DNA of 64,000 bases from Candidatus Eiseniibacteriota bacterium. Lineage in GTDB: Bacteria; Orphanbacterota; Orphanbacteria; Orphanbacterales; Orphanbacteraceae. Shown here piece by piece: positions 5,065 to 24,510 of this stretch. The stretch is from positions 1 through 64,000 of the forward strand of contig JAJRWB010000080.1 in assembly GCA_024276995.1 (NCBI GenBank), read 5' to 3'. Numbering within the stretch: position 1 is the stretch's first letter; every line of letters starts with the position of its first letter. A program made the translations under genes and the position numbers. Below the pieces are notes generated by a model, which made no database searches, was not told the origin of the DNA, and saw only the letters and a list, made by a program, of their open reading frames with translations.

Positions 5065-6216
5065 TCAGCGCGCCGGCAGGGGGCTCGCCTCGCCGATCGA
5101 ATGGCGGAACCGCGCGATGAGATCATGGAAGCTGCGCGTGCCGCGCGGATCGACGCCGAAACGGAAGAGGTGGCTCGCGCACGGGCAGTCGGACGATCCG
5201 AAGCGGTCCACCGCCTCCTCGGCGAGTTCACCGACCGCGCCGGCGAGGAGACACTCGTCGCGCCGACTCGAGCGAATGGGAAACGATTCGATCATCTCGG
5301 CCTTTCGGCGGAGATAGTCGATATGCCAGTGCATTTTCTTCCTCAGTCGCTTATGCCGGGCGATCCGTTTCGAAAGGCCGCGCTCGGCGGAGCCGGCGTA
5401 GAGATACCACCCCGCAGGAAATACGAGCGCGCCGAGGGGAATCGGTACCGGTTTCGCCGACGGCGTCACCGATAGATCACGGTTCATGGTGATCGCCGCC
5501 GCGAGGAAGCGGAAGCGCTCGTTCGTTCCGGCCGCGGCGCCGGGAAAGCGCTTCTCCACATCGACGAGGGCGGCGGCGAAGTCGAGGTCGGTGTGGATGT
5601 CGGGAAGAAGCCGCTCGGCGTGCGGATCGTGGACCACGAAGAGGAGCGCTGCTCTTCCGCCGTGTTCGGCGATTTTCGCCAGTTCCTCCACGTGCCTCCT
5701 CCCTCTCGCCGTGGGAGCGTCCGGGAAAAGGGCGATCCTCCGCTCGATCAGGTTGCAAGACTTCACTTCGCAGAAGAACTCTCCCAGGCGGTCGGCGAGG
5801 AGGAAGTCGAAGCGGGAGCGGCCGACCGTCACCTCGCTCCGGACGATTCGCGAACCGCGAAGAGAGTCGATCGCGCCGCGGTCGATCAGCGCTTCGGCGA
5901 TCCGATTGTTCGTGTGCGTGTCGAGAAGACGTACCGTTCCTTCCCGCGCGACGGCGACGGCGGTGAATCTCGTTTTTCGCGCCGGCGCCGACACCGGGCG
6001 CGGCGGCGCGGGTATGATGAAGATTTCCACCCCGGGAAGGAGAAGCTCTCCCATTCTTCCCGGATTCGGCAAAAAGGCGTGGACCACTCGGCCGCCCCGG
6101 CGGACACGGATCGTGTATCGGTTCGGCCGGTCGACATACTCGCCGCTTCCGGCTCCTTCGAATAGGCGGATCGCGCCGCCCCGCGGGGAGCGCGCGTCGT
6201 GAGGGGTGGGGTTCAA
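5065..6216 (-). CDS. SfsA-DUF123 fusion protein (putative nuclease-like / DNA-binding)
   Basis: Two families in one 383-residue chain. The first 230 residues are SfsA-like: NPGRMGELLLPG, then FDFLL ... EVKSCNL and FPDAPTARGRRHVEEL, residues resembling a restriction-nuclease-type fold. The last 130 or so are DUF123, a GIY-YIG-like domain: GWYLYAGSAERGLSKRIARH, HWHIDYL, and a cysteine pair in SSDCPCASHL. The proposed TTG start sits inside the stop of the upstream phosphatase gene (TTGA overlap), implying translational coupling; an upstream ATG at 6330 would overlap that gene by over 100 bases. Biochemical role unknown: SfsA was linked to sugar fermentation and is often called a DNA-binding protein. 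Confidence 0.85.
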   Translation of the reverse strand: MNPTPHDARSPRGGAIRLFEGAGSGEYVDRPNRYTIRVRRGGRVVHAFLPNPGRMGELLLPGVEIFIIPAPPRPVSAPARKTRFTAVAVAREGTVRLLDTHTNNRIAEALIDRGAIDSLRGSRIVRSEVTVGRSRFDFLLADRLGEFFCEVKSCNLIERRIALFPDAPTARGRRHVEELAKIAEHGGRAALLFVVHDPHAERLLPDIHTDLDFAAALVDVEKRFPGAAAGTNERFRFLAAAITMNRDLSVTPSAKPVPIPLGALVFPAGWYLYAGSAERGLSKRIARHKRLRKKMHWHIDYLRRKAEMIESFPIRSSRRDECLLAGAVGELAEEAVDRFGSSDCPCASHLFRFGVDPRGTRSFHDLIARFRHSIGEASPLPAR

Positions 6217-6671
6217 ACCGGCTTCGGACTTGCGGGGCGCACGACGTGGATCGCCTCCCACGAATCTCCGCGCCGCTCGAGAACGGCGGCGTGGGCCGTG
6301 CCGAGGAGGGAGACTTCCTGCTGGCCGCAAAGATGGGAGATCAATTTCACTAGGTGAGGCATGTGTCCGACCACCGCCGCCGGCACGGTCAGACGTCCCA
6401 GCTCGACGGCGACCTCTTCCACATCATCGTGGGGCGCAAGACCGGCGATTTTCTCGATCCGTGCATTCTTTCCGGCGCGCTCCGCGAGAATCGCCGCCGT
6501 TCGAGCGGCCCTTTTCTTTCCACTGTGAAGGATGATACCGAGATCGTAACCGGTCTCGCGAAGGGAGTCGCTCACCGAACGGACGTCGGCGACACCTTTC
6601 TCCGTGAGACCCCGCTCGCCCGGGTGGTCGGGGCCGTCCGCCTCTCCGTGACGCATGAGTACGAGAATCAT
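6213..6671 (-). CDS. SixA-type histidine phosphatase
   Basis: A 152-residue member of the histidine phosphatase (phosphoglycerate mutase-like) superfamily. MRHGEAD near the N-terminus (His8) is the phospho-acceptor motif, and GHMPHLVKL near residue 108 supplies the second active-site histidine. Length and the layout LTEKGVADVR ... LHSGKKRAARTA match SixA proteins, which remove phosphate from phosphohistidine in signalling or PTS proteins. The start is chosen because GGAGG lies eight bases before the ATG; longer starts lack homology. Its stop overlaps the start of the SfsA-DUF123 gene. The physiological partner is not apparent here. Confidence 0.85.
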   Translation of the reverse strand: MILVLMRHGEADGPDHPGERGLTEKGVADVRSVSDSLRETGYDLGIILHSGKKRAARTAAILAERAGKNARIEKIAGLAPHDDVEEVAVELGRLTVPAAVVGHMPHLVKLISHLCGQQEVSLLGTAHAAVLERRGDSWEAIHVVRPASPKPV

Positions 6672-6923
6672 CGATATCCTCCGAAAACACTGCGCCGGCA
6701 CCGGTGTCCCGGCGACTCGTATCCCGCCCTGATGAACGGTGGGGGTTCGGCTCGCGTCCGCGCCACCCGGCGCGGGACACGAGCACTCGTCGATCATAAC
6801 TTCAAAATCGTTCCGGCGCAAGGGCTACGCCGGTCGGGTCTTCCCCCCGGACGAAGAAAAATGTGCTATATCTATTCATATGAACGGCGATCGATCGGCC
6901 GGTGCTTCAGAAGGGAGGAAGTC

Positions 6924-7403
6924 GTGCAGCATCTCAAGAAGCTAATTTCCAGGAGAGAACTTCATGTCATAAGCGAGGACGCGTCTGTTTCGGAGGCGGT
7001 GAAGAAGCTGGATATCCATAATATCGGTGCGCTCCCCGTTGTTCGCGGTGAGAGGGTGGTCGGTATCTTCTCCGAAAGAGACGTTGTCCGGCGGGTGGTT
7101 CTCCCCGGTCTCGATCCGGCGGCGACGAAAGTCGGCGACGTGATGACGGAGAACATCGTCGTCGGCGAGCTGGTCGCCGGGTTCGAAAAGTGCCAGGAGC
7201 GGATCCGCGCCGCCCGCGTGCGCCATCTGCCGATCGTCCACGAGAAGAAGCTGGTCGGCTTCGTGTCGCTGAGGGATTTCTTTCGCCAGGAAATCCGGAT
7301 CCAGGCGGAGGAGATCCGCCACCTCACCGACTACATCCACTTCGTTCCGCCCTCGGTGAACCCCGAGGCGGAACCGACCGAGGCAGAGCCGACCCAGGCG
7401 TAA
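6924..7403 (+). CDS. tandem CBS-domain protein
   Basis: A 159-residue protein made almost entirely of two CBS motifs: residues about 8-65 (VISEDASVSEAVKKL ... GIFSERDVVRRVV) and about 75-130 (VGDVMTENIVVG ... LVGFVSLRDFF). CBS pairs bind adenine nucleotides and act as energy or ligand sensors. No catalytic domain is attached, and the tail is acidic and proline-rich (EPTEAEPTQA). The GTG start is chosen for its AGGGAGG site five bases upstream; longer in-frame starts lack support. It stands alone, divergent from sixA and convergent with the peptidase gene. Target unknown. Confidence 0.85.
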   Translation: MQHLKKLISRRELHVISEDASVSEAVKKLDIHNIGALPVVRGERVVGIFSERDVVRRVVLPGLDPAATKVGDVMTENIVVGELVAGFEKCQERIRAARVRHLPIVHEKKLVGFVSLRDFFRQEIRIQAEEIRHLTDYIHFVPPSVNPEAEPTEAEPTQA

Positions 7404-7451
7404 CACCGGCGCGGCGACGATCGGCGGTGCGGCGTTTCGGGCCTCGCCCGC

Positions 7452-9152
7452 TCAGTCGGAGGCGTCGGCGAAGGCGAGCCTCCGGTGGAGTTCCCTGTCG
7501 AATGCCTCCCAGTCGATCTTCTCGTAACCGAGCATTCTCGCCGCTTCATCGCCCTGCAGGGCGTTCGCATCCTTCCACAGTTCCTTCTTCAGAAAGGCGC
7601 CCGCCTCGGTGTTTCGCCACCATGGGTCGCCGAACTTTCGCGAGAGTCCCTCGTGGAGCTGCTTCGCCAGGGCGTAGGAGCGGGCATAGTCGGCGGAGTA
7701 GAAGAACGGGTCGACGTCGGTGCGGTAGCGCAGCGCCTCGGTGGGAGTCAGTTCGAAGCCGTATGCTTTCGAGAAGAGGACGCGGTACGTCTCCTGAAGA
7801 TCGTCGCCGGCGGCGCCGTCGTAGAGTCCTTCATACACAGACGGATCGCCGCCGTGCAGAATCGTTTCGTATACGAGCTTCGCACCTGCGTAGCGACGGA
7901 CGAAATAGAGGTCCCAAAACGCGCGGTTCTTCACGAGAATCGCGATTTCACGGTCGGTCATCAAGGGCACCCGCCCGTCGCCGCTGACGTACCGGTTGTA
8001 ATCCCGCACGTACTCCCTGTACCACTTGAGCCAGTCGGGGTCGCCCCAGAGTCCCTCGAAGAGACCGGCGTACGCTTCAGTCACCGTGCTGCCGCCGAGC
8101 TGCTGGAACTCCCACACATCGGTCACGCCGTTGGCGAAATGGACGGCATGGCCCCCCTCATGGAAGAACGTCTCGTAATCGGGAACGCCGCCCGACGGCT
8201 TCACCGAGATTCGCACGTCGCCCGGAACCTCGATCGGGTAGCACACCGCGCGGGGATCCTTCTTCGGGTGATCGTCGTCGTTGACGAGGATCGGAGTGCC
8301 GGCGGCGCTGTTCATATCGAGGCCGATGTTTTCGAGAAAATAGCGGAACGCCGGGATAACGAGTTCCTTCGGAAAGAACCGGCCGAACCCGGCGAGATGG
8401 GAAAGACGCCCGATGTCGGAGCGATGGAACTCCTCCGGTTCGATGCCGAGCACCCGGGCGACCTCGCCGGCGAAGAGTTTCCTGTAGAGGTCGTCCGTCT
8501 TTTCGATGTATGCCCCCGACATGTGCGCGAGGGCCGCAAGATCGACGTTGCGAAGCTCCTCGGCGAGCTCGACGTAGCTCCCGTGACCGAGGTCGGCACA
8601 GATCGACTCCTCCTCGGCGGTCTTCTTCTCGTGGAGCGGGTTGAGAATGTCCTTCCAGTATTTCGCCTGGGCGTCTTGCAGTTGCGCCCGCCGTACCGGA
8701 TCCTCCTCGTTGTCGAGCATGCCGTCGAGATCTCTGTACGCCACCGGTTCTTCCGACGGGGTGACGCGCACCATCCCTTGCGCCTCGGCGTCGAGGATCT
8801 CGTCGTCGAAATGGGCGGTGTGGAGGGAGACGTATTCGGAAACGAGGTAGTTCCGGAAGTATTCGAGCGCCCTCTTCCCGTCCCCTTCGGCCGATGGGAT
8901 CCGCTTCTCCACTTCGGCGATCGTCCTCTTCGAGAAGAGATGCTCATGCCCCTTGTATGTGCTCGACATGAGCGACTTCTCGCCCACGCAGTTGGAATAC
9001 CACGAGAGCACCGCCTGCACTTCGACGAGCGCCTTCGCCTCGTCGCGGGCGTCGTCGATGGAAAACGGTTCGCTCCGGGACGTGCATCCGGAAAGGAGAT
9101 GGATCGCCGCCGCGAGAGCGGCGAACGCAGTGATTCGGGGGAAGGAATACAT
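7452..9152 (-). CDS. gluzincin lipoprotein peptidase (M3/M2-like)
   Basis: A 566-residue membrane-anchored metallopeptidase. The N-terminus MYSFPRITAFAALAAA ends in the lipobox LLSGC, so the mature protein should be lipid-anchored in the cell envelope. The zinc motif is HEGGH (His331, Glu332, His335), and Glu359 in GGSTVTEAYAG is a likely third ligand, 24 residues on, as in M3 and M2 enzymes. The overall helical character fits oligopeptidases of those clans. GAGGAG lies just before the chosen ATG. Family membership (M3 versus M2) is uncertain; substrate unknown. Confidence 0.78.
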   Translation of the reverse strand: MYSFPRITAFAALAAAIHLLSGCTSRSEPFSIDDARDEAKALVEVQAVLSWYSNCVGEKSLMSSTYKGHEHLFSKRTIAEVEKRIPSAEGDGKRALEYFRNYLVSEYVSLHTAHFDDEILDAEAQGMVRVTPSEEPVAYRDLDGMLDNEEDPVRRAQLQDAQAKYWKDILNPLHEKKTAEEESICADLGHGSYVELAEELRNVDLAALAHMSGAYIEKTDDLYRKLFAGEVARVLGIEPEEFHRSDIGRLSHLAGFGRFFPKELVIPAFRYFLENIGLDMNSAAGTPILVNDDDHPKKDPRAVCYPIEVPGDVRISVKPSGGVPDYETFFHEGGHAVHFANGVTDVWEFQQLGGSTVTEAYAGLFEGLWGDPDWLKWYREYVRDYNRYVSGDGRVPLMTDREIAILVKNRAFWDLYFVRRYAGAKLVYETILHGGDPSVYEGLYDGAAGDDLQETYRVLFSKAYGFELTPTEALRYRTDVDPFFYSADYARSYALAKQLHEGLSRKFGDPWWRNTEAGAFLKKELWKDANALQGDEAARMLGYEKIDWEAFDRELHRRLAFADASD

Positions 9153-9340
9153 TTTCGGCTCCTCGAATAGGGAATCGTGTTCGACGCGGGCCGACCGTCC
9201 GCTCGCTTCATCGCGGGGAATCGTACCTGTTCGGCGCACCGCTTGCAATTCGCATTCCGCCCGCCGGCGAATCAGGCGATCCCCTTCGCGTCGGCGCCTT
9301 CGCCGGCGCGGGCCGCGCACACATCGCGCCCGATCTGTTC

Positions 9341-9997
9341 TCAGAAACCGACATTCAATCTGAGAACCCAACCGTTGAGATCCTGGCCCTCGGTCGCCTG
9401 GATCGGTACGCCCGCCACCTCGAAATCGTCTTTCACCAGGCTGTCGATGCCGAATTCATAGCGCAGTTCGGGGGCGAGGGTGATCCCCATGCTGGGCGCG
9501 CCGATCTTCAGTCCGATACCCGCGCTTCCCATGACGATGGCCGACTGGAAGTTGTCCTTGAATTCGTCGGGCGCGCCGGTGTTGAAGCGGAACTCGGGAC
9601 CCGCCACGATGTACGGTTTCACGAAGGGCGTGACGAGACGGTACTGGATGTCGATGGGGATGGCGAAAAACTGCACGTCGAAGTCATCGTCGAAATCGGC
9701 GGGAACTCCCGGAATCTCTGAAAGGCCGTTGAAAAGAGGGCCCGCGTTGACGTAGAGAAGGCCGGCGCGAAGGCCGAGCGGCCCCAGGCCGGTTTCGATG
9801 AAGCCGCCGATATGGTACCCGGTGCGACTCGAATAGGTCGATTTCGCCTCTCCCACCTGCACGTCACTCAGTTCGGCGAAATTGAGACCCGCGGTGACGC
9901 CCTTACCGACGATCGCTTCCGCTCGACGGGTGCCGGGGCCGCCCGCCAGGACGAGAAGGATGAGCGCGAAGAGGAGCTGAATCGTTCTGCCGTTCAT
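9341..9997 (-). CDS. outer-membrane beta-barrel protein (porin-family type)
   Basis: A 218-residue protein with a signal peptide (RTIQLLFALILLVLAGG, cleavage probably after RRAEA). It alternates polar and hydrophobic residues in short strands (YHIGGFIETGLGPLGLRAGL, VKPYIVAGPEFRF) and ends in phenylalanine (LRLNVGF), the usual signal for barrel insertion. The pattern matches small PF13568-like outer-membrane proteins in FCB bacteria, so the cell has an outer membrane. It lies upstream of the peptidase gene on the same strand, 188 bp apart; co-transcription is possible. Function beyond a membrane barrel cannot be assigned. Confidence 0.75.
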   Translation of the reverse strand: MNGRTIQLLFALILLVLAGGPGTRRAEAIVGKGVTAGLNFAELSDVQVGEAKSTYSSRTGYHIGGFIETGLGPLGLRAGLLYVNAGPLFNGLSEIPGVPADFDDDFDVQFFAIPIDIQYRLVTPFVKPYIVAGPEFRFNTGAPDEFKDNFQSAIVMGSAGIGLKIGAPSMGITLAPELRYEFGIDSLVKDDFEVAGVPIQATEGQDLNGWVLRLNVGF

Positions 9998-14221: not shown

Positions 14222-14250
14222 TTGCAAAACCGGTGGTGCGCCCTTATGCT
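14222..14250 (+). promoter_or_regulatory. candidate promoter of the respiratory operon
   Basis: TTGCAA (14222-14227) and TATGCT (14245-14250) are separated by exactly 17 bp; each matches four of six consensus positions. Transcription would start near 14257, about 67 bases before the proposed start of the cytochrome gene. Confidence 0.45.
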
Positions 14251-14323
14251 TGACCCCGTTCCCGGGGCTCGGGAGATCGGTTCGACATGCCGCCTTCATC
14301 CCGCCGAGGAAAGGGAGGTCGCC

Positions 14324-15688
14324 ATCAGGAACATCCATGAGAACGATGCCGCGCTGCGCGGTTTTCTGATCACCCTGGGCGCCACGGTACTCATCGTCGC
14401 CGGCGCGCTCCACTTCGCCCAGGCGCGATACAGCGAGTATCTCGGTGCGAAGGAGAAGATCTCCGTCCTCGAGGGGGCGGCGCGCAAACCATTCATGGGA
14501 AGCGGCGATCCGGAAAGGGGAATGGCCCTTTTCGCGGCGAACTGCGTCTCGTGCCACGGTGTCGCCGGCCGGGGCGAGATCGGCCTGGCGCCGAACATCG
14601 GGAACCGCGATTTTCTCGCCCTCGCCTCCGACCTTTTCATCAAGGAAACGGTCAATCACGGCAGGGAAGAGACGGCGATGATCGCGCGCCCGGACCTTTC
14701 GGACGAGGCACTCACCCACATCATCGCTTATCTCCGTTCCGTTCCTTCCGGCGGTCCGATGGAAGTCGTCGTCGACCACGATAAAGTCCTCGACGGCGAT
14801 CCGGCGCGGGGGGAGCCGCTCTTCCATACGTTCTGTGCTCCCTGCCACGGTCCGAACGGCGAAGGTTACGCCGCGGGCGGGGCCGGTTCCGGCATCGGGC
14901 TGCCCGGCTTCCTGGACGTGGCGAGTGACGACTATATCCTCCAGACTCTCTACCACGGGCGGACCGGCACACCGATGCGTCCTTTCATCGGCGCGCGGGG
15001 ATTGGCGGGGCTGACCGAGGAGGAAGCGGGCGATATCATCGCTTTTCTGAGGAACAACTCGTCGAACGCGGTCGAATCGGCGCTCCACATGCCGGTGCTC
15101 TATGCCGGGCCGCCGAACCCGGCCACCGGGGAGAAGATCTTCATGACCAACTGCGCGTCGTGCCACCAGACGGGCGGCGTCGGCAAGCCGGGTCTCGCCC
15201 CGAGTATCCGGAACCGCGATTTCCTCGCCATCGCCTCGGACGATTTCATCAAGTCGACCGTTCTCCAGGGACGGGCCGGGACCGCCATGGTGCCGCGGGC
15301 CGATCTGGGGGAGAGCGCCATCGAGCAGATCATCGCCTACCTCCGCGATCTTTCCGTGGCGGTGCCGCTGACCGTGCAGCTGAACCCGGACCGGAAATGC
15401 ACGGGCGACGCGGCGCGGGGAAGATCGCTCTACCGGACCTTCTGCTCGTCGTGCCACGGAGCGCGAGGCGAGGGCTACAGCGCGGGAGGCGCCGGCCCGG
15501 GGATCGGCCTTCCCGGATTCTTGAGCGTGGCGACGGACGGCTACATCTTCGAAACGGTGAAAACGGGACGGGTCGGCACGCCGATGCGGCCTTTCATCGG
15601 TGCGCGGGGGCTGGCGAATCTTTCGGAACAGGATGTAAACGACATTATTGTTTATTTGAGAAGTCTGCAGGTTTCGGACGGTGTCTGA
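14324..15688 (+). CDS. membrane-anchored tetraheme cytochrome c (tandem diheme duplication)
   Basis: An N-terminal anchor helix (RGFLITLGATVLIVAGALHF) precedes a periplasmic region with four CxxCH heme sites beginning at Cys74, 171, 277 and 374. Spacings of 97, 106 and 97 show a diheme unit repeated twice; both copies share GIGLPGFL and GTPMRPFIGARGLA. Met residues in TAMIA, TPMRP and TAMVP are candidate axial ligands. The best Shine-Dalgarno site, AGGGAGG, stands five bases before an ATC codon; no ATG, GTG or TTG follows in frame before the anchor. The in-frame ATG at 14246 overlaps the promoter and lacks a site. It probably feeds electrons to the molybdoenzyme encoded next, replacing NapB/NapC. 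Confidence 0.88.
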   Translation: MRNIHENDAALRGFLITLGATVLIVAGALHFAQARYSEYLGAKEKISVLEGAARKPFMGSGDPERGMALFAANCVSCHGVAGRGEIGLAPNIGNRDFLALASDLFIKETVNHGREETAMIARPDLSDEALTHIIAYLRSVPSGGPMEVVVDHDKVLDGDPARGEPLFHTFCAPCHGPNGEGYAAGGAGSGIGLPGFLDVASDDYILQTLYHGRTGTPMRPFIGARGLAGLTEEEAGDIIAFLRNNSSNAVESALHMPVLYAGPPNPATGEKIFMTNCASCHQTGGVGKPGLAPSIRNRDFLAIASDDFIKSTVLQGRAGTAMVPRADLGESAIEQIIAYLRDLSVAVPLTVQLNPDRKCTGDAARGRSLYRTFCSSCHGARGEGYSAGGAGPGIGLPGFLSVATDGYIFETVKTGRVGTPMRPFIGARGLANLSEQDVNDIIVYLRSLQVSDGV

Positions 15689-15741
15689 CCGGAAACGGAC
15701 CCTCGGGGCCGGCGATCGGTTATGAGATCGAGGAGCGCAAA

Positions 15742-18369
15742 ATGAAAAGAAGATCTTTCATGAAGAAAGCGGCCATCGCCGCCGTGGCCGCGGGTGTTCC
15801 AACCGCGAAGGGGTGGACGGTTCCCGATCCGGAGAACGTGCCGCTCGAATCGAAGGAAGCGAAGAATCATGTTCTCGCGGCGTGCCCCTACTGCGGCGTC
15901 GGATGCGGGACGATCATCCAGACCGAGAACGGCAAGATCACCAACGTGATCCCCGACAAGCATCACCCGACGAACAAGGGGCTCCAGTGCATCAAGGGGC
16001 TGACGTCGGCCGAGGCGATCTACGTGAACCGCCTGACCAAGCCGCTCATCCGCAAAGACATGTCCGACCCCTTGCGGGGACATGTTTCGGCGACGAAGGG
16101 ATCGTTCGACCCGAGTCTCTTCCGGGAAGCGACTTGGGAGGAGGCGGAGGAGATCACCGCCGACCGGGTGGCGGAGATCGTAAAGAAATCGGGGGGGAAC
16201 GCCGTCGGCCTGTATGGCTCGGGGCAGCTCACCGTGGAAGGGCAATACCTCGAGAATATCTTCATGAAGGGAGTGCTCGGTTCGAACACGATCGAGGCGA
16301 ACGCGCGGATGTGCATGACCTCCGCCGTGACCGGCTATTTCAAATCGCTCGGTTCCGACACCCCGCCTACCTGTTACGACGATATCGAGCTGGCGGACAT
16401 GATCACCTTCTGGGGGCACAATGCCCGCGGTTCGCACCCGATCCTCTTCTGGCGCGTGGCCGACCACAAGGCGCTCGCCGATATCCCGACGCTCGTCGTC
16501 GATCCGCGGCGAACCGGCACGGTGCAGGGCCTCGAGGAGATCAACCCGGCGAACAGCGTCCATTTCCCCACGATCAACGGGGATATCTCGATTCATAACG
16601 CCCTCGCTTACGCCATATTGGAGCGGCATGACGACGCGGTCGCCTGGGACTTTCTCAAGAAGTACACCACCGGGTGGAAGGAATACGTCGATGGCGTGAA
16701 GGCGAACTACAACCCGAAGGACGTCGAGGACAGGACGCTCATCCCCGCCGAAGAGATCTACCGCGTGGCGGAGATGTGGGCCGAGGCGAGCATCAAGGGG
16801 AGGAAGAGGGGGTCGGGGGGCGTGCTGAGTATCTGGGGGATCGGTTACAACCAGCATCTCCACGGCCAGCACAACACCATGGGCCTGGTGAACCTGATGG
16901 CGCTCACCGGGAATATCGGCCGTCCGGGCGCAGGGCCCCACTCCCAGACCGGCCAGCCGAACGCCATGGGTGAGCGGCTCACCGGTGGTCTTACCGGAAG
17001 GCTCCCCTTCAACATCGGTCTGGGAAACGCCGAACACAGGAAGTATATCGCCGAATGCTGGGGAATCCCGCAGGAGCGGCTCGACGCCGTGGCGAAGCTG
17101 CAGAACACCGGCATGGCGGTGGGGATGATGGAGCGGGCGCTCAAGGGCGAGGTTCAGGCGATGTTCCTCATCTACGCGACGCACATCGATCTTCCCGACG
17201 CGTACCACCTTTCACGCCCGGCGCTGACGAAGATGTTCACCGTTGTGCAGGAGATCTACAAGGACGCGCCGAACAACCTCTACGCCGACATCATCCTCCC
17301 CGCCGCCACGTGGGGCGAGTGGGTCGGCGGCACGTACATCCAGTCGGAGAGACGCCTTTACGTGGTGGACGGCACCGCGAATCCGGTGAAGGGGTGCAGA
17401 CCCGACATGGACATGGTGATCGACAAGGGGAAGATGATCGCGAAGCGGCTCGGCCTCGACGCCGACCGGATCTTTCCCTACAAGCGGATGGAAAACGGGT
17501 ATTACGACCCTGAAGATGTTTTCCGCGAATTCCTCAAGGCTTCGAAGGGGAGCGACGCCGATCTTTCGGGAATCTTGGAAGTGGAGAAGGAAACGGGCAA
17601 GTCTCCCTACGACCAGATCCGCGAATTGCGCGGTATTCAATGGCCCGCTCCGACTTCGGCGATCGCCAAGGCGGGCGGGACGAAAAGACGGTACATGGCC
17701 CAGGAGGAGTACTGGCCCGACAAGCCGTACGCTGAATTCCGTCACCCCGACGGGAAACTCCACATCCACTTGGTCAACCAGGATTACAGCCGTTACAAGG
17801 AGATCACCGACGCCATGTCGCCGGCCGGCGTCGACCCGAACTTCTACATCATCGATCATCTCGACACGCTCGTCGCCGCCCGCGATGCGGGATTGACGCC
17901 GGAGCTTCCCGACAAGGATTATCTCGGCAGGAAGATCGGGAGCGTACCGGGCGACAAGTACCCGTTCTGGTGGGCCACCGGTGTCGTGTACGAGCATTTC
18001 CACACGTCGAAAACGATCCGCGCCGGCACGACGAAGAAGCTGGTGCCCGAGATGTACGTCGAGATGCACCCCGACGACGCCGCCGAGCTGGGCGTGCGCG
18101 ACGGCGAATGGGTCCGCATCGTCACGCGCCGGGGAACGGTGGAAGCGCGCGCCTCGATCGGTCTCGATTCGGTGGTCAAGCCGGCGCGGAATACGGTGCC
18201 GAAGGGATTCCTCTTCAGCCCGTGGAACTTGTCGGTGGCCGATTCGGCCGATCCGAAAAAGAACAAGTGGCTCGCCAACGGCACCACCCACAGGGCATTC
18301 GACCCGGTCTCCGGTCAGGCGGATTTCAAGAAGTGCGTCTGCCGGGTGGAGCCGCTCGGGAAGGGATAA
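15742..18369 (+). CDS. NapA-like periplasmic molybdoenzyme (probable nitrate reductase catalytic subunit)
   Basis: An 875-residue molybdopterin bis-MGD oxidoreductase. A twin-arginine signal (KRRSFMKK) sends the folded enzyme to the periplasm. Cys48, Cys51, Cys55 and Cys83 (CPYCGVGC ... QCIKG) bind one 4Fe-4S cluster, and Cys191 in NARMCMTSAVTGY sits where NapA uses cysteine to bind molybdenum. The GSDTPPTCYDD stretch is also NapA-like. A difference is WGHNARGSHP where NapA usually has a methionine/acidic pair before HP, so the substrate could differ from nitrate. No napD chaperone or napB follows. A GAGGAG site fixes the start. Confidence 0.85.
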   Translation: MKRRSFMKKAAIAAVAAGVPTAKGWTVPDPENVPLESKEAKNHVLAACPYCGVGCGTIIQTENGKITNVIPDKHHPTNKGLQCIKGLTSAEAIYVNRLTKPLIRKDMSDPLRGHVSATKGSFDPSLFREATWEEAEEITADRVAEIVKKSGGNAVGLYGSGQLTVEGQYLENIFMKGVLGSNTIEANARMCMTSAVTGYFKSLGSDTPPTCYDDIELADMITFWGHNARGSHPILFWRVADHKALADIPTLVVDPRRTGTVQGLEEINPANSVHFPTINGDISIHNALAYAILERHDDAVAWDFLKKYTTGWKEYVDGVKANYNPKDVEDRTLIPAEEIYRVAEMWAEASIKGRKRGSGGVLSIWGIGYNQHLHGQHNTMGLVNLMALTGNIGRPGAGPHSQTGQPNAMGERLTGGLTGRLPFNIGLGNAEHRKYIAECWGIPQERLDAVAKLQNTGMAVGMMERALKGEVQAMFLIYATHIDLPDAYHLSRPALTKMFTVVQEIYKDAPNNLYADIILPAATWGEWVGGTYIQSERRLYVVDGTANPVKGCRPDMDMVIDKGKMIAKRLGLDADRIFPYKRMENGYYDPEDVFREFLKASKGSDADLSGILEVEKETGKSPYDQIRELRGIQWPAPTSAIAKAGGTKRRYMAQEEYWPDKPYAEFRHPDGKLHIHLVNQDYSRYKEITDAMSPAGVDPNFYIIDHLDTLVAARDAGLTPELPDKDYLGRKIGSVPGDKYPFWWATGVVYEHFHTSKTIRAGTTKKLVPEMYVEMHPDDAAELGVRDGEWVRIVTRRGTVEARASIGLDSVVKPARNTVPKGFLFSPWNLSVADSADPKKNKWLANGTTHRAFDPVSGQADFKKCVCRVEPLGKG

Positions 18370-18372
18370 GCC

Positions 18373-18969
18373 GTGAAGCGCCGCGGGTTTCTCGCGACCT
18401 TCCTCACCGGCGTCCTTCTTCCGCTGGCGCTCCCCCTCGCGGCCCGCGTCCCCGGAGCCGGGCGGCTTCGTCGTTTTCTCCGACCTCCCGGGGCGCTCGC
18501 GGGGGACGATTTCCTCGACGCGTGTATCGGTTGCGGACAGTGCGCCGCCGTCTGCCCCAACAAGTGCATCCACCTGCGGGGACTCGAAGGGGGACTGAGC
18601 GAACTCGGTACGCCCATGATCATCGCCAGGGCGAAGGGGTGCATTCTCTGCATGGCGTGTACGCAGGTCTGTCCCACCGGCGCCCTTCGGAAGATCGTAC
18701 CGACGGAAGAGGGAATGCGCGCCGTCGCCATGGGGAAGGCGTACCTGACGGAGGACATCTGTTACTCGTACGCCGGCCGAACATGCGGGGTCTGCTACAG
18801 GGCGTGTCCCCTTCCCGGCGAGGCGATCACCATCGGACTGTATGAAAAGCCCACCGTGCACAGGGAGTCGTGTGTCGGCTGCGGGCTGTGCGAGCAGGCG
18901 TGCATCCATATGCCGCAGGCGATCCGAGTGATCCCGGCGGACGAAGACCGAGCACCGACCCCGGTTTGA
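18373..18969 (+). CDS. NapG-like periplasmic ferredoxin, first copy
   Basis: A 198-residue protein with a twin-arginine-type signal (KRRGFLAT) and four 4Fe-4S motifs: CIGCGQCAAVCP, CILCMACTQVCP, CGVCYRACP and CVGCGLCEQAC. This is the NapG/MauM pattern. NapG normally works with NapH to pass electrons from menaquinol to the periplasmic reductase. The GTG start lies three bases after the stop of the molybdoenzyme gene, so the two are co-translated. A second, similar copy follows at once. Confidence 0.87.
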   Translation: MKRRGFLATFLTGVLLPLALPLAARVPGAGRLRRFLRPPGALAGDDFLDACIGCGQCAAVCPNKCIHLRGLEGGLSELGTPMIIARAKGCILCMACTQVCPTGALRKIVPTEEGMRAVAMGKAYLTEDICYSYAGRTCGVCYRACPLPGEAITIGLYEKPTVHRESCVGCGLCEQACIHMPQAIRVIPADEDRAPTPV

Positions 18970-18980
18970 AAGCTCCATCG

Positions 18981-19592
18981 ATGAACCGAAGAGTCTTTAT
19001 CAGGGAAATGGCGGCCCGCTCCGCGGCGTCGGGGGTGCTCGCCCTGTCGGGACTGTCGATTCTCGCGCTCCTAATCCGGAGCGAGGCGGCCGGACCGGCC
19101 GTGCCGGGCGAGCCGGCGACGCTCCGACCGCCCGGCGCCCTTGCGGAAGCCGGTTTTCTGGCCGCCTGCATCCGGTGCGAACGGTGTCGCGACGCGTGCG
19201 AGGCGGGGTGCATCCGCATCGCCCGGCCGCCCGACGGCGCGGGAAGGGGAACTCCCTTCATCGTAGCCCGCGAAAGGGGATGCACCCTTTGTCTCGAGTG
19301 CACGCGCGTGTGTCCCACCGGGGCGCTCCGCCGCCTGGAAGAGGTCGAGGATGTGGCGATGGGTGTGGCGGTGATCGATGAACGCACGTGCGTTGCGATC
19401 AATCGGACCGGCGTATGCGGCGCGTGCCACACGGTGTGTCCCCTCCGGAATCGGGCGATCACCCTCGGCCTTCACAACGCGCCCGCGATACACGACGACA
19501 AGTGCGTCGGCTGCGGACTGTGCGAGGAGGCGTGTATTCTCGATGGGACGAAGGCGATCCGCGTCTTTCCCCGAAGAAAGGGGGCGGCATGA
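18981..19592 (+). CDS. NapG-like periplasmic ferredoxin, second copy
   Basis: A 203-residue paralogue of the preceding gene product. The signal is twin-arginine-like (NRRVFIREMA) with a hydrophobic core. Clusters are bound by CIRCERCRDACEAGC (spacing altered), CTLCLECTRVCP, CGACHTVCP and CVGCGLCEEAC. The two copies share LRPPGALA-type linkers and TGALR elements but differ widely elsewhere, so the duplication is old. Its stop overlaps the next start (ATGA). Confidence 0.87.
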   Translation: MNRRVFIREMAARSAASGVLALSGLSILALLIRSEAAGPAVPGEPATLRPPGALAEAGFLAACIRCERCRDACEAGCIRIARPPDGAGRGTPFIVARERGCTLCLECTRVCPTGALRRLEEVEDVAMGVAVIDERTCVAINRTGVCGACHTVCPLRNRAITLGLHNAPAIHDDKCVGCGLCEEACILDGTKAIRVFPRRKGAA

Positions 19593-20497
19593 GCGACCCG
19601 TTGCGCACGTTGCGGAAGGGAACGCAAGGCGCCGTGGCGATCTTTCTCGTCGTCGGGCCCCTCCTCGCCTGGCACGGGCCGAACGGTGGTTCGACGAGGA
19701 TTTCCCGCGTGCTGAGTGATACGAGGGAGCGCGTCGCTTCCGTTCACGGCGACAGCTGGTCGGCGCAGATCGGCGGCGTCTCTCTTCTCGATCCTCTCGC
19801 CGCGGCGGAAGGGGTCGTTTCACAGAAGGCGTCCTTCCGACCGCTTCTCCTCGCGCTGGTTCTCCCTGTGGCGCTCACGGTACTTCTCGGCAGGGTGTTC
19901 TGCTCGTGGGTCTGCCCGGCCGGATTCTTATTCGAATCGTGCGATTCGCTGCGGCGGCTCCTGGCGAAGGCTTCGCTCGTTCCGGGGCGTGTGAGACTCT
20001 GGAGGGGGCACAAATATGTTCTCCTCGTCGCCGGTCTCGCCGTCACCGCCCTTGCCGGGATCCCGGTACTCTCCCACGTCTATCCGCCCGCCCTGGCGGC
20101 GCGGGAGGTTCACGATACGGTGTTCGGTCTCCTAGACGGCCGGTACGCGCCCACCGGGGCGCTCCTCTTCCTCTTCGGTATCGTGCTGTTCGAACTTCTC
20201 GCTGGCCGCCGCGCTTGGTGCCGCTCCCTCTGCCCGGGAGGGGCGCTCTACTGCCTGCTCGGTTCAGGGAGGCTCGTGCGGATCCGGCGGGAGGCGAAGC
20301 GATGCACCGACTGCGCCGATTGTATCGTCGCGTGCCCGATCGGCCTCGACCCGATGCACGACCGCACCGGAGTGGAGTGTGATAACTGCCGCGAGTGCGT
20401 GGCGAGCTGTCCGGAGGACGCCCTTTCGTTCGCTCTCGCCCGGGCCGACGCCCCGGCGGCGGGAACACCGTCCGGCCAGGAGAGGCCGGCACCGTGA
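19589..20497 (+). CDS. NapH-like membrane Fe-S protein, first copy
   Basis: A 302-residue inner-membrane protein with about four helices. Paired CxxxCP motifs between helices (RVFCSWVCPAGFLFE and AWCRSLCPGGALY) and a cytoplasmic ferredoxin end with CTDCADCIVACP and CDNCRECVASCP define the NapH family, a menaquinol dehydrogenase partner of NapG. A long periplasmic loop carries DSWSAQIGGVSLLDPLAAAE, matching NapH layout. The start overlaps the previous stop and the stop overlaps the next GTG. Confidence 0.88.
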   Translation: MSDPLRTLRKGTQGAVAIFLVVGPLLAWHGPNGGSTRISRVLSDTRERVASVHGDSWSAQIGGVSLLDPLAAAEGVVSQKASFRPLLLALVLPVALTVLLGRVFCSWVCPAGFLFESCDSLRRLLAKASLVPGRVRLWRGHKYVLLVAGLAVTALAGIPVLSHVYPPALAAREVHDTVFGLLDGRYAPTGALLFLFGIVLFELLAGRRAWCRSLCPGGALYCLLGSGRLVRIRREAKRCTDCADCIVACPIGLDPMHDRTGVECDNCRECVASCPEDALSFALARADAPAAGTPSGQERPAP

Positions 20498-21426
20498 GCG
20501 ACACGATCGGCCGGAAACGGGGCGTCCGCCTCCTCATCCTTTCCACGCTCAGCCGAACGGCGGTTCTTCTCCTCCTGTGCACCCTCGCCTTGTGGACCGA
20601 GTACTCGAATCTCAAGCTCGGGTACAACAATCCACGCCTCGTAGAGCTGAGTTCGGGACGGATGATGCGCCTCTTCTACGAAGGGTCGGACGCCTTCTTC
20701 TCCCTATTCGGAGAACCGGCGCAGGTGGCGCGCGAATTCGGCGGGATGACCTGGTCGATCCGCCTGTTCGGCATCCCGTTCACCGATCCGGTGGCCGCCC
20801 TTTCTCTCCTCGCGCGTGGCCACGGCTGGACGCCCCCGATCGCAGCCGGTCTTATCGTCCCCGTCGCCCTGGCGCTCCTTTTCGGCCGTGTCTTCTGCGC
20901 GTGGATCTGTCCGGCGTCCCTCCTTTTCTTCACCATATCGAGGATGCGCAGCCTTCTTTCCCGGTTCTTCTACTTTCCCGACTTCTCCCCCGGCCGATCG
21001 ACGGCATGGGGGATTCTCGCCGGCGGCCTTCTCGCGGCGGCGCTCTACGGCCACGGCGTCTGGACGCTTCTTCTTCCCTACTTCGCCATGGGGCAGGTTC
21101 TCTTCCAGTCGATCGCCTTCGGCACCCTTCCACCGCCGTTCTTCGCCCTTGCCGTCTTCGCCGCCGCCGACCTCGCCCTCTCGAGACGCTTCACCTGCCG
21201 GCACCTGTGTCCCACCGGAGTGCTTCTCGGTTTTCTCGGCCGGAAGGCGCCGGTCACGATCCGCCGCGATGCGCCGCGCTGCATCGCCGAGTGCGACAGC
21301 TGCACCCTCGTTTGTCCCTTCCAGGTGAACCCGAAGCGCGACGAAACACTCGACTGCTCGATCTGCGGCGAGTGCGTCGCGATCTGTCCGACCGGATGTC
21401 TTTCCGTGGGAAGGGGTGCATCATGA
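20494..21426 (+). CDS. NapH-like membrane Fe-S protein, second copy
   Basis: A 310-residue paralogue of the preceding protein. It has RVFCAWICPASLLFF and FTCRHLCPTGVLLGFLG within the membrane part and CIAECDSCTLVCP plus CSICGECVAICPTG at the cytoplasmic end. The periplasmic loop differs (YEGSDAFFSLFGEPAQVAREFGG in outline). The GTG start overlaps the preceding TGA (GTGA), so the two copies are made together. With the two NapG-like proteins this gives two parallel quinol-oxidising modules. Confidence 0.87.
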   Translation: MSDTIGRKRGVRLLILSTLSRTAVLLLLCTLALWTEYSNLKLGYNNPRLVELSSGRMMRLFYEGSDAFFSLFGEPAQVAREFGGMTWSIRLFGIPFTDPVAALSLLARGHGWTPPIAAGLIVPVALALLFGRVFCAWICPASLLFFTISRMRSLLSRFFYFPDFSPGRSTAWGILAGGLLAAALYGHGVWTLLLPYFAMGQVLFQSIAFGTLPPPFFALAVFAAADLALSRRFTCRHLCPTGVLLGFLGRKAPVTIRRDAPRCIAECDSCTLVCPFQVNPKRDETLDCSICGECVAICPTGCLSVGRGAS

Positions 21427-22022
21427 TCGCCGGCCGGTCCACCGCTCCCGTCATCGCGCTTCTCGCAACGCTTCTCTTCGCACCCGCCGCCGAGGCGCAC
21501 CATTTCAAGGGGCTTCCCCACTTCTCCTATTTCGAAAACTACCCGCAGGTCCCGCAGGAAGAGTTCCTCGGTCAGGCGGGGGACTACGAATACTCCCTCG
21601 TGCTCTACGATTTCCAAGGGTTGAAGAAAGAAGACGCCTACCAGCCCGACGATGCGAGACTCTACTTGATCATCTTCAATCTCCGTGAGAATCGCGTGTA
21701 CAACGGCCCAATCGCCGTGGAGATCCTCGATCGTGGCGCACCGATCGATTCGCTCGAAATCGAGGCGCCCCAGGAGGAGAGCGTCTACTCGCTCCAGAGA
21801 ACACTCCCTTCCACGGGACGTTACTCTCTCGCCGTAACGCATCTGGAAGGGCCGCCCACGCGCGCCGTCATCCCGTTCCGGCTTTCGTCGCAGAAGACTC
21901 TCTGGGGGAAGTGGGTGATCGGGATCCTGGCGCTCTTCGTGGCGGTCGTCGCCTTCGGGTCGAGACGGGCGCGGCTCGCCATCGACAGGCGGGACGCTCT
22001 CAACAGGAGGAAGACGCGTTGA
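21423..22022 (+). CDS. exported, C-terminally anchored protein of unknown function
   Basis: Not recognised. The 199 residues comprise a signal peptide (VIALLATLLFAPAAEA), a His-containing mature start (HHFKGLPHFSYFENYP), a predicted all-beta periplasmic domain of about 130 residues, one C-terminal helix (VIGILALFVAVVAFG) and a basic cytoplasmic tail. There are no cysteines, so no Fe-S cluster or c-type heme. Start and stop overlap the flanking genes (ATGA and TTGA), placing it firmly inside the respiratory operon. It may be an assembly or docking factor for the periplasmic electron carriers. Confidence 0.8.
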   Translation: MIAGRSTAPVIALLATLLFAPAAEAHHFKGLPHFSYFENYPQVPQEEFLGQAGDYEYSLVLYDFQGLKKEDAYQPDDARLYLIIFNLRENRVYNGPIAVEILDRGAPIDSLEIEAPQEESVYSLQRTLPSTGRYSLAVTHLEGPPTRAVIPFRLSSQKTLWGKWVIGILALFVAVVAFGSRRARLAIDRRDALNRRKTR

Positions 22023-23542
22023 CCGGCGAAATGGCGATGCACCGGATGGGGGGCGTGCCGGCACCGATCGCCATCGGTGGCGTGGTGGCGATGATCGTCC
22101 TTTCCCACCTGATCCTCACATTGCACGGCCGAAGAGCGCGTCCGGGGGGCTACGCGGTCTTCGACCTCCTTCGGATCGGAGCGATCGACAAGATGGTGAA
22201 GAGCCGGGCGTTCCCGCCGGCGCTGCAGGCGGTCCCGATTCTCCTCTTCCTACTCGTCATCGCGGCGGGGCTTTTCGGATCGGATCACGTGAACATCGGT
22301 CCCGTGCTCACCTGGACCTGGTGGTGGGCGCTGTTGATCTTCGTGATACTCGTTTCCGGGGCTAGTTTCTGCGCCGTATGCCCATGGGAAGGACTCTCGT
22401 CGCTGATCACCTCCTTCTCATTCACTTCGCGTATCAAAAAGATCGGATTCGAATGGAAGTGGCCCCGCCGGTTCAAGACGATCTACGCGGCGCTCGCCCT
22501 CTTCATCCTGCTCACCTGGTTCGAACTCGGTCTCGACGTCACCCGGTCGCCGGTGATGACCGCCGTTCTCGGCGCCCTGTTCGTGTCGGGCGCGATCCTG
22601 GGGGCGCTCCTTTTCGAAAGGAGAGCGTTTTGCCGGTACATCTGCTTCGTCGGAAGGATCCAGGGATTGTACGCTCTTTTCAGCCCGGTGGAACTGAGAC
22701 CGGTCTCGAAGGAGGTGTGCCGTTCGTGCGAGGGGAAGGAGTGCTACCACGGCGGCGACGCGGCGGTCGGCTGCCCTACGTCGCTCTTTCCCGGCGCTTT
22801 GCGCGAGAACACATACTGTACGCTCTGCACCGAGTGCATAAGCGCCTGTCCCCACGACAACCTCGCGATCAACGTGCGCCCCTTCGCGGCGGACCTCCAC
22901 AGGAAGACGCCCTTCCGGCGCGACGAAGCGGTGCTCGCCGTTTCGCTGCTCGCGCTCACCAGCTTCCACGGTCTCACCATGACGCCCTTCTGGGAGCGCT
23001 TGACCGATATGCTCCGCGTCACCACCGGCATCGGGCCGAAGGGGGTTTTCACCCTCCTCATGGCCGGCATGCTGATCGCGCCGGCGCTCCTCTTCTACGT
23101 CACATCGTACGCGGCGAAGCGGCTCGCCGGCGATCGCTCACCGAGTACGGGAAGGATCTTCCGCGGCTTCGCCTACTCGGTCATCCCGATCGCCCTCTTC
23201 TACCATCTCGCCCACAACGGAATGCACTTCTTCATGGAAGGGCAGAACATCATACCGCTCCTCAGCGACCCGTTCGGGAGGGGGTGGGATCTCTTCGGTA
23301 CGGCGAATCGAAGCTACGCTCCCTGGCTGAGTCTCGAGACGATCTGGTGGCTCCAGATCGGCCTGATCGTGACGGGCCATCTCGCCGGAGTGATTGCGGC
23401 GGACCGCATCGCACGGGTACTATTCAAGGAGAAGGGAGACGCGATCCGGGGATTGATCCCCCTGATCCTCACGATGATTCTCTACTCCAGCTTCAGCGTA
23501 TGGCTGATCGCCCAGCCGATGACCATGCGTTCGGGGATGTGA
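22019..23542 (+). CDS. large polytopic polyferredoxin (NapH/CcoG-related)
   Basis: A 507-residue membrane protein with about ten helices. Fe-S motifs comprise SFCAVCPWEGLSS, FCRYICFVGRIQG, the cysteine set CRSCEGKEC with GCP, and CTLCTECISACP. The first half follows the NapH plan; the second half adds further helices with histidines (LFYHLAHNGMHFF) that could bind heme or interact with quinone. TTG is taken as the start because AGGAGG lies eight bases upstream and TTGA overlaps the previous stop; an ATG four codons later has poorer spacing. It may be the third quinone-linked entry point of this operon. Confidence 0.82.
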   Translation: MTGEMAMHRMGGVPAPIAIGGVVAMIVLSHLILTLHGRRARPGGYAVFDLLRIGAIDKMVKSRAFPPALQAVPILLFLLVIAAGLFGSDHVNIGPVLTWTWWWALLIFVILVSGASFCAVCPWEGLSSLITSFSFTSRIKKIGFEWKWPRRFKTIYAALALFILLTWFELGLDVTRSPVMTAVLGALFVSGAILGALLFERRAFCRYICFVGRIQGLYALFSPVELRPVSKEVCRSCEGKECYHGGDAAVGCPTSLFPGALRENTYCTLCTECISACPHDNLAINVRPFAADLHRKTPFRRDEAVLAVSLLALTSFHGLTMTPFWERLTDMLRVTTGIGPKGVFTLLMAGMLIAPALLFYVTSYAAKRLAGDRSPSTGRIFRGFAYSVIPIALFYHLAHNGMHFFMEGQNIIPLLSDPFGRGWDLFGTANRSYAPWLSLETIWWLQIGLIVTGHLAGVIAADRIARVLFKEKGDAIRGLIPLILTMILYSSFSVWLIAQPMTMRSGM

Positions 23543-23548
23543 CAAGCC

Positions 23549-24130
23549 ATGTCCGACGAATTGACGAGACGGCAATTCTTTCGCCTCGGGCCGGTGGACA
23601 TTCTCCGCGGACTCGTGGATGGACAGGGCCGGGCCGGCGCCGGGAGGAAGGAGTCGCCGATCCGCCCGCCCAGCGCGCAGGCGGAAGATGCGTTTTTGCG
23701 AACGTGCGAAAGATGCGGGAAGTGCGCCGAGGCGTGCATCCACGAAGCGATACGCCGTTTCGGACCGGCCGGCGGGAGGAACGAGGGGACGCCGTATCTT
23801 CTTCCGGCGAAGAAGCCGTGCTACTGGTGCGAAACGATGGACTGCGTCCATGCCTGCCCGTCGGGCGCTCTCCGGTTCGGCGAAGACGGGAAGGCCGCGC
23901 CGATCGGCACGGCGGTGATCGACGCGGACCTTTGCCTCGTGAGTGGTGGGACTCTGTGCGATCTTTGCGTCTCCTTCTGCCCGAGCGCGATTCGAGCGAT
24001 CTCGATGGCGGCGCGCCGGCCGGTGGTGGATGAAGGGCGCTGCACCGGGTGCGGGCTTTGTGCGAAGTTCTGTCCCGCCGAGGAGTCGGCGATCCGTATC
24101 GTCGCGTCGGCGGGGAGGAGCGGCTCATGA
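23549..24130 (+). CDS. NapF-like ferredoxin
   Basis: A 193-residue protein with four 4Fe-4S motifs: CERCGKCAEACI, CYWCETMDCVHACP, CDLCVSFCP and CTGCGLCAKFCP. The N-terminus DELTRRQFFRLG resembles NapF, which is usually cytoplasmic and helps mature or reduce NapA; the RRQFF may be a vestigial export motif, since no strong hydrophobic core follows. It ends the Fe-S part of the operon and overlaps acpS by ATGA. Confidence 0.82.
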   Translation: MSDELTRRQFFRLGPVDILRGLVDGQGRAGAGRKESPIRPPSAQAEDAFLRTCERCGKCAEACIHEAIRRFGPAGGRNEGTPYLLPAKKPCYWCETMDCVHACPSGALRFGEDGKAAPIGTAVIDADLCLVSGGTLCDLCVSFCPSAIRAISMAARRPVVDEGRCTGCGLCAKFCPAEESAIRIVASAGRSGS

Positions 24131-24510
24131 TCGTCGGTTTGGGGATCGACCTGATCGAACTTATTCGGGTGCGCGGCGCGGTGGAACATTTCGGCGACCG
24201 TTTCCTGCGACGGGTCTACACCGACGAGGAGATCGCGTATTGCAGGGGGAAGGCCGACCCGGTCCCTTCGCTCGCCGGGCGGTTCGCCGTGAAGGAAGCG
24301 GCGATGAAGGCGCTCGGCACCGGTTACGCCCGGGGGGTTTGGTTCAGGTCGATCGAAGTCGCACGGAAACCCGCCGAGGCGCCGGGCGTCGTTTTTCACG
24401 GCGGTGCGCGAACGAGAGCGGACGATATGGGCGTTACGAACATCTTCGTGTCGCTCACCCATGAGAAGGGGATGGCGGCCGCGGTGGTGGTGCTCGAGGG
24501 AGAGCGGTGA
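24127..24510 (+). CDS. acpS: holo-[acyl-carrier-protein] synthase
   Basis: Transfers 4'-phosphopantetheine from CoA to acyl carrier protein. The 127-residue product has VGLGIDLIELIRV (metal-binding Asp8) and GRFAVKEAAMKALGTG (catalytic Glu/Lys region), the two hallmarks of AcpS, and normal length. The start overlaps the stop of the NapF-like gene, so it seems to be translated from the respiratory operon message, with which it has no known functional link. No clear terminator follows. Confidence 0.93.
   Translation: MIVGLGIDLIELIRVRGAVEHFGDRFLRRVYTDEEIAYCRGKADPVPSLAGRFAVKEAAMKALGTGYARGVWFRSIEVARKPAEAPGVVFHGGARTRADDMGVTNIFVSLTHEKGMAAAVVVLEGER

Follow-up and report, generated by a model that had tools for sequence, protein, structure and literature searches.

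An operon of nine genes, all on the plus strand, occupies positions 14324-24130 of the window, the 64,000-nucleotide stretch of a Candidatus Eiseniibacteriota genome (contig JAJRWB010000080.1, called C67 here) that was analysed. The source assembly comprises 3.76 Mb in 81 contigs and is 96% complete. In order, the genes encode a tetrahaem cytochrome c, a molybdoenzyme with a twin-arginine translocation (TAT) signal, two NapG-like proteins, two NapH-like proteins, two proteins designated U7 and U8, and a third NapG-like protein. Four junctions are 4-base overlaps and three more span at most 11 bases. A preliminary description of the region listed the same genes, all co-oriented, in agreement with this layout, and its naming of the tetrahaem cytochrome, the TAT molybdoenzyme, two NapG-like proteins, two NapH-like proteins and one large polyferredoxin was backed by searches with Pfam and NCBIfam profile hidden Markov models. 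It had also placed a promoter before the operon, where a scan found no sigma-70-like promoter.

The cytochrome (14324-15688) has one N-terminal transmembrane (TM) anchor and four CXXCH motifs, one in each of four class I cytochrome c domains (PF13442 and PF00034, four stretches each). Domains 1 and 3 share 50% identity and domains 2 and 4 share 60%, with 40-46% in the remaining pairs; the Photobacterium homologue has two domains, which tend towards these same types. Because the domains pair in this way, the tetrahaem protein looks like a duplicated di-haem unit. Among 76 loci, the neighbouring cytochrome has two haem motifs in 49, four in 21 and 3, 6, 9 or 10 in the others; by this comparison the tetrahaem form is a local elaboration, proteobacterial versions being di-haem. 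The gene most likely starts with AUC at 14324, not at 14222 as proposed before. No ATG, GTG or TTG occurs where homology begins in the window or in three relatives of the same family, and all four loci have an in-frame ATC after a Shine-Dalgarno-like run (in the window GGGAGG, 14307-14326 with the proposed start), with motif and spacing the same throughout. Rare start codons can mark regulation linked to initiation factor 3.

The molybdoenzyme (15742-18369, 875 residues) is a NapA-like molybdenum-bis(pyranopterin guanine dinucleotide) (Mo-bisPGD) protein that begins with a twin-arginine motif and contains a Mo-Fe4S4 domain carrying one [4Fe-4S] cluster (PF04879, PF00384 and PF01568). It scores 354 bits against the NapA model PRK13532 (cut-off 904) and 328 bits against TIGR01706 (cut-off 931), and in the PDB it is most similar to structures of NapA, with scores of about 260 bits. 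A maximum-likelihood tree was built from 38 sequences, including 18 members of its clade, nine canonical Nap rows, assimilatory nitrate reductases (Nas) and formate dehydrogenases (Fdh), with AioA/IdrA left out. The clade is monophyletic (100/100) on a stem of 1.9 changes per site, outside Nap, Nas and Fdh, and the canonical Nap rows, among them a second NapA of the source genome, form a group of their own (100/100) that does not contain the window enzyme. On this phylogeny, which the preliminary description had called for, the enzyme is not canonical NapA. Grouping of the clade with Nap has support of 79/52, and approximately unbiased (AU) tests gave p values of 0.35 for Nas and 0.21 for Fdh as sister, so placement of the clade next to any one of the three was dropped.

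Residues were compared using the numbering of Desulfovibrio desulfuricans NapA. Wherever a clade sequence covers the positions, it has Lys79, Cys140, Met141, Asp155, Gln346 and Arg354, and the Nap and Nas rows all do too; in Fdh rows, by contrast, position 141 is His and position 155 is Gly or Ser. Met141 occurs in 81 of 81 clade members, which thus lack the Cys/Sec-His pair of cytoplasmic-type formate dehydrogenases. The ligand position is Cys in the same 81, unlike AioA/IdrA enzymes, which have no amino-acid Mo ligand (PMC10100899); in perchlorate reductase the ligand is Asp (PMC12769810). The charged residues of the NapA substrate channel are Arg354, Asp155, Glu156 and Asp355 (PMC13223375). 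Of these the clade keeps Asp155 and Arg354. Glu156 is lost in 81 of 81 members (Thr in 80, Ala in one), and Nas rows lack it as well. At 355 every Nap and Nas row has an acid, whereas all 82 clade members that were compared have Leu, Phe, Ile or Tyr instead. With the core residues kept and both acids lost, the clade therefore combines the common core of nitrate reductases with a pocket that is consistently less acidic.

The enzyme resembles NasA/NasC/NarB in its Cys-Met-Asp-Arg set and in the motifs DxPPxCY and GQPNAMGxR. It differs from these cytoplasmic proteins, which lack such a cytochrome and keep Glu after Arg354, in its separate clade, its TAT start and the Leu or Phe at 355. An altered NARGSHP region had been taken as a sign that the substrate might not be nitrate. 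This stretch aligns with residues 212-219 of Escherichia coli NapA, which touch the distal pterin (PMC13223375), and within it Gly213 and Asn215 are kept and Glu218 is replaced by Gly or retained. As a pterin-contact loop it says little about substrate and was ruled out as a marker; the informative changes are those of Glu156 to Thr and of the acid at 355 to Leu or Phe.

Two NapG-like periplasmic ferredoxins, each with a twin-arginine motif, are encoded at 18373-18969 (PRK09476, 132 bits; TIGR00397, 116 bits) and 18981-19592 (141 and 128 bits), followed by NapH-like membrane polyferredoxins at 19589-20497 (PRK09477, 123 bits; TIGR02163, 118 bits) and 20494-21426 (PRK09477, 103 bits). NapG and NapH models are their best matches, yet all Nap-type scores lie below the curated cut-offs. 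The architecture is that of NapGH, a ferredoxin with several clusters led by a twin-arginine motif and a membrane polyferredoxin with two cluster motifs and TM-like segments. The protein encoded last (23549-24130) had been called NapF-like. The NapG model fits it better (TIGR00397, 103 bits, versus 54 bits for napF), but it does lack a hydrophobic segment and is probably cytoplasmic, with a NapF-like role. The doubling of NapG and NapH, presented earlier as a defining feature, is not conserved: the second pair occurs in some close relatives and is missing in others, including one of the same family (locus L032 of genome G004). Since about half of the close relatives have a single NapG and NapH, doubling was ruled out as a hallmark and, from this distribution, is a local elaboration.

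U7 (21423-22022) has a signal peptide followed directly by an invariant HHxxGxP motif, then an immunoglobulin-like (Ig-like) sandwich and a C-terminal TM helix (model predicted local distance difference test (pLDDT) score 87), and matched no family in Pfam or NCBIfam. Its best fold match, the Helicobacter pylori copper protein CrdA (E 1.7e-3), is too weak for naming, and one U7 member matches FixH weakly; neither resemblance is used as a claim. U8 (22019-23542) is a membrane polyferredoxin with NapH-like cluster motifs (weak NapH match, 32 bits) and extra C-terminal helices (pLDDT 88.5). It had no PDB match by sequence or by fold. Its invariant histidines (H311, H390, H393 and H397) might, at a guess, bind haem or metal. 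NapH of the second kind is joined to U7 in one uninterrupted reading frame at nine loci, and NapH, U7 and U8 are so joined at four; the hosts of these fusions include Verrucomicrobia, Hydrogenedentota and Myxococcota. Because of the fusions, U7 and U8 are predicted to belong with NapH and to act together, which supports a common membrane module of the three. FixG/FixH (CcoG/CcoH) likewise place a membrane polyferredoxin beside a small anchored Ig-like protein, but U8 matches NapH models and not CcoG, so the likeness is one of resemblance only.

A scan of 84,980 species genomes found 230 relatives of the enzyme, of which the best 80 were retained. Judged by record titles, many of which are names of metagenome-assembled genomes (MAGs) as deposited, the same cluster occurs in about twelve phyla: Eisenbacteria, Verrucomicrobiota, Planctomycetota, Gemmatimonadota, Latescibacterota, Cloacimonadota, Hydrogenedentota, Myxococcota, Oligoflexia/Bdellovibrionota, Poribacteria, Acidobacteria and Pseudomonadota. 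Among the hosts are isolates, including Photobacterium indicum, P. profundum and Shewanella gelidimarina. Across host phyla the enzyme is 58-83% identical to that of the window. Its tree mixes phyla, which suggests spread by horizontal transfer; no plasmid copies of the clade were found, all plasmid matches being below 60% identity. The gene order is conserved across phyla, as a check suggested in the preliminary description established. The cytochrome adjoins the enzyme in 57 of 58 loci with enough flank, and where enough downstream sequence was available U7 follows in 48 of 49 loci and U8 in 39 of 49. Among the loci examined there were no recurrent nir, nor or nos genes near the cluster.

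NapB, NapC and NapD are missing from the operon, as first described, and NapB is missing from the whole source assembly. The NapC family is represented there by partial matches alone, in large multihaem frames at 124 and 140 kb of C67. These lie in a multihaem cytochrome cluster at 123-141 kb of that contig, with 6 to 15 CXXCH motifs per frame and partial NapC- and NrfA-type matches. The single NapD match, below threshold, lies on contig C77 (G+C content 64%, against 63% for the window), where it immediately follows a canonical NapA that is accompanied by NapG and NapH; these genes together occupy positions 5552-9582. The window enzyme therefore does not have the partners of NapA: there is no NapB, the weak NapD stands beside the other NapA alone and the cytochrome is of the tandem class I type.

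Recognised nap operons fall into four types, napEDABC, napDAGHB, napCMADGH and napAGHBFLD (PMC13223375), and the window cluster is none of them. It shares with napCMADGH of D. desulfuricans and Caldithrix abyssi the lack of NapB, a tetrahaem cytochrome (NapM there), NapG/NapH and a TAT molybdoenzyme of the same superfamily (PMC5317091, PMC13223375). However, the window cytochrome consists of four tandem class I domains, no U7 or U8 is reported for napCMADGH, and the D. desulfuricans-type NapA of the source genome belongs to another clade. The other three types also combine a NapG/NapH quinol dehydrogenase or NapC with a periplasmic Mo-bisPGD enzyme, but all have NapB and NapD (PMC13223375), both of which the window cluster lacks while adding the class I cytochrome, U7 and U8. 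The main text searched of three superfamily trees (PMC7331816, PMC10100899, PMC12769810) names no such lineage, and two of these studies, according to the same text, retained only sequences with operons fitting known models. No published description of the cluster was found in the literature, although absence from open-access text is no proof. Judged by sequence, the cluster is a lineage of its own, apparently uncharacterised, alongside the nitrate reductases already known.

It is reasonably probable that the operon encodes one anaerobic, quinol-linked periplasmic oxyanion-reductase module, in which electrons pass from menaquinol through NapH, U8 and U7 to NapG, the cytochrome and the enzyme. 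NapG, NapH and NapC have an accepted role in menaquinol oxidation (PMC12780646, PMC5317091). The NapH-like membrane proteins, with U8 and U7, would oxidise menaquinol, and the NapG-like ferredoxins would relay electrons to the periplasm. The class I di-haem unit, doubled here to four haems, would replace NapB and hand electrons to the [4Fe-4S] cluster and then the Mo-bisPGD of the NapA-like enzyme, which would reduce a small oxyanion; the third NapG-like protein would probably be a cytoplasmic maturation factor in place of NapF/NapD. Proteobacterial clusters often include a NapC-like protein that is anchored in the membrane and has about five CXXCH motifs (17 loci); as the usual quinol entry, it favours this reading. 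Of the variant chain first proposed, a periplasmic, quinol-linked and non-canonical chain stands, given the separate clade and conserved order, but the reasoning from doubling and from NARGSHP does not.

Gene content, clade, conservation, fusions and residue pattern are the directly observed parts of this explanation. Several points weigh against it. The electron path, its direction, the substrate and the roles of U7 and U8 are inferred, and U8 is missing in some copies. The loss of both channel acids does not fit the pocket of an ordinary Nap. Two further genomes of the same family (G001 and G004) encode canonical NapA as well as the enzyme, and both Photobacterium species and S. gelidimarina have two canonical NapA apiece. 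A census of nitrogen-oxide enzymes covered 44 clade-host genomes, including incomplete MAGs, and NapA, NarG, NirK, NrfA and NosZ, with NirS left out. It found NapA in 17 (14 over the cut-off and three clear partial matches), NarG in about six, NirK in seven or eight, NrfA in five and NosZ in 10. None of the five was found in 15 of the 44, and the link to nitrogen oxides is therefore weak.

No single reaction is likelier than reduction of nitrate to nitrite, with a chance only just short of even, and on the sequence evidence the other oxyanions taken together are about as likely. Nitrate is favoured because the conserved core is kept; the changed pocket, the coexisting canonical Nap and the weak link to nitrogen-oxide genes favour another substrate or a special regime. 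The enzyme may thus be a redundant periplasmic nitrate reductase, Nap-like with swapped partners and tuned to another affinity, redox poise, pressure or temperature, a possibility held at somewhat less than even. The conserved Cys-Met-Asp-Arg set and the NapG/NapH/NapC-type donors agree with redundancy, as do the two differently regulated Nap systems known from Shewanella piezotolerans (PMC6308320), but the long stem of a separate clade, the lack of an acid after Arg354 in every member and weak co-occurrence with NirK, NrfA and NosZ do not. Respiration of a different oxyanion or oxide (selenate, chlorate, iodate, or an N- or S-oxide, for example) by Nap-type wiring is a tentative proposal with nearly the same chance. 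It is favoured by the coexistence of one or two canonical NapA with the enzyme in several hosts and by the 15 hosts that have none of the enzymes sought, and it fits the strict conservation of the altered pocket residues across phyla and the clade-specific partners U7 and U8. However, the Mo ligand and its neighbours are of nitrate-reductase type, known sites for non-nitrate oxyanions looking different (PMC10100899, PMC12769810), and no substrate-specific gene was found beside the cluster copies.

Class I cytochrome c domains serve also as electron donors to oxidases. The Mo enzyme might accordingly oxidise its substrate and pass electrons through the cytochrome to a terminal acceptor, and formate dehydrogenases are among the relatives of Nap. 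This direction is improbable, since the His beside the Mo ligand of formate dehydrogenases is Met here and NapC/NapG/NapH partners are held to be quinol-oxidising in characterised cases (PMC12780646). Far less probable still is a canonical NapA served by napB, napC and napD elsewhere in the genome, which the preliminary description had named as an outcome that would overturn its view. Contig C77 does carry canonical napA, napG and napH with a weak NapD, but that contig has a NapA of its own, NapB occurs nowhere in the genome and the window enzyme lies outside the canonical group. 

A more far-reaching proposal, less likely than not but more probable than the two readings just given, is that of an undescribed periplasmic Mo-enzyme family, spread horizontally through about a dozen phyla, that reduces a non-nitrate oxyanion by means of a new quinol dehydrogenase module, NapH-U7-U8. 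Metagenome counts of nitrate reduction would be distorted if so widespread an enzyme were misread as NapA. Photobacterium profundum and S. gelidimarina carry the enzyme and are culturable; the substrate question is therefore directly testable.

The genes beside the cluster vary. In the window, a CheR-like frame ends upstream at 14205 and an AcpS-like frame lies downstream (about 24127-24510), both named by eye. A MOSC-like gene stands beside the cluster in six hosts (L035, L041, L045, L046, L050 and L057) and a MoaA-like gene in four (L046, L055, L057 and L076), again named by eye; these neighbours suggest a linked supply of molybdenum cofactor. A gene for a DUF255-type, thioredoxin-domain-like protein adjoins the cluster in six hosts (L025, L055, L079, L081, L082 and L090). 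In one Opitutales genome (L053, 1-12619) the cluster is split, with NapG, NapH, U7, U8 and the third NapG oriented opposite to the cytochrome and enzyme.

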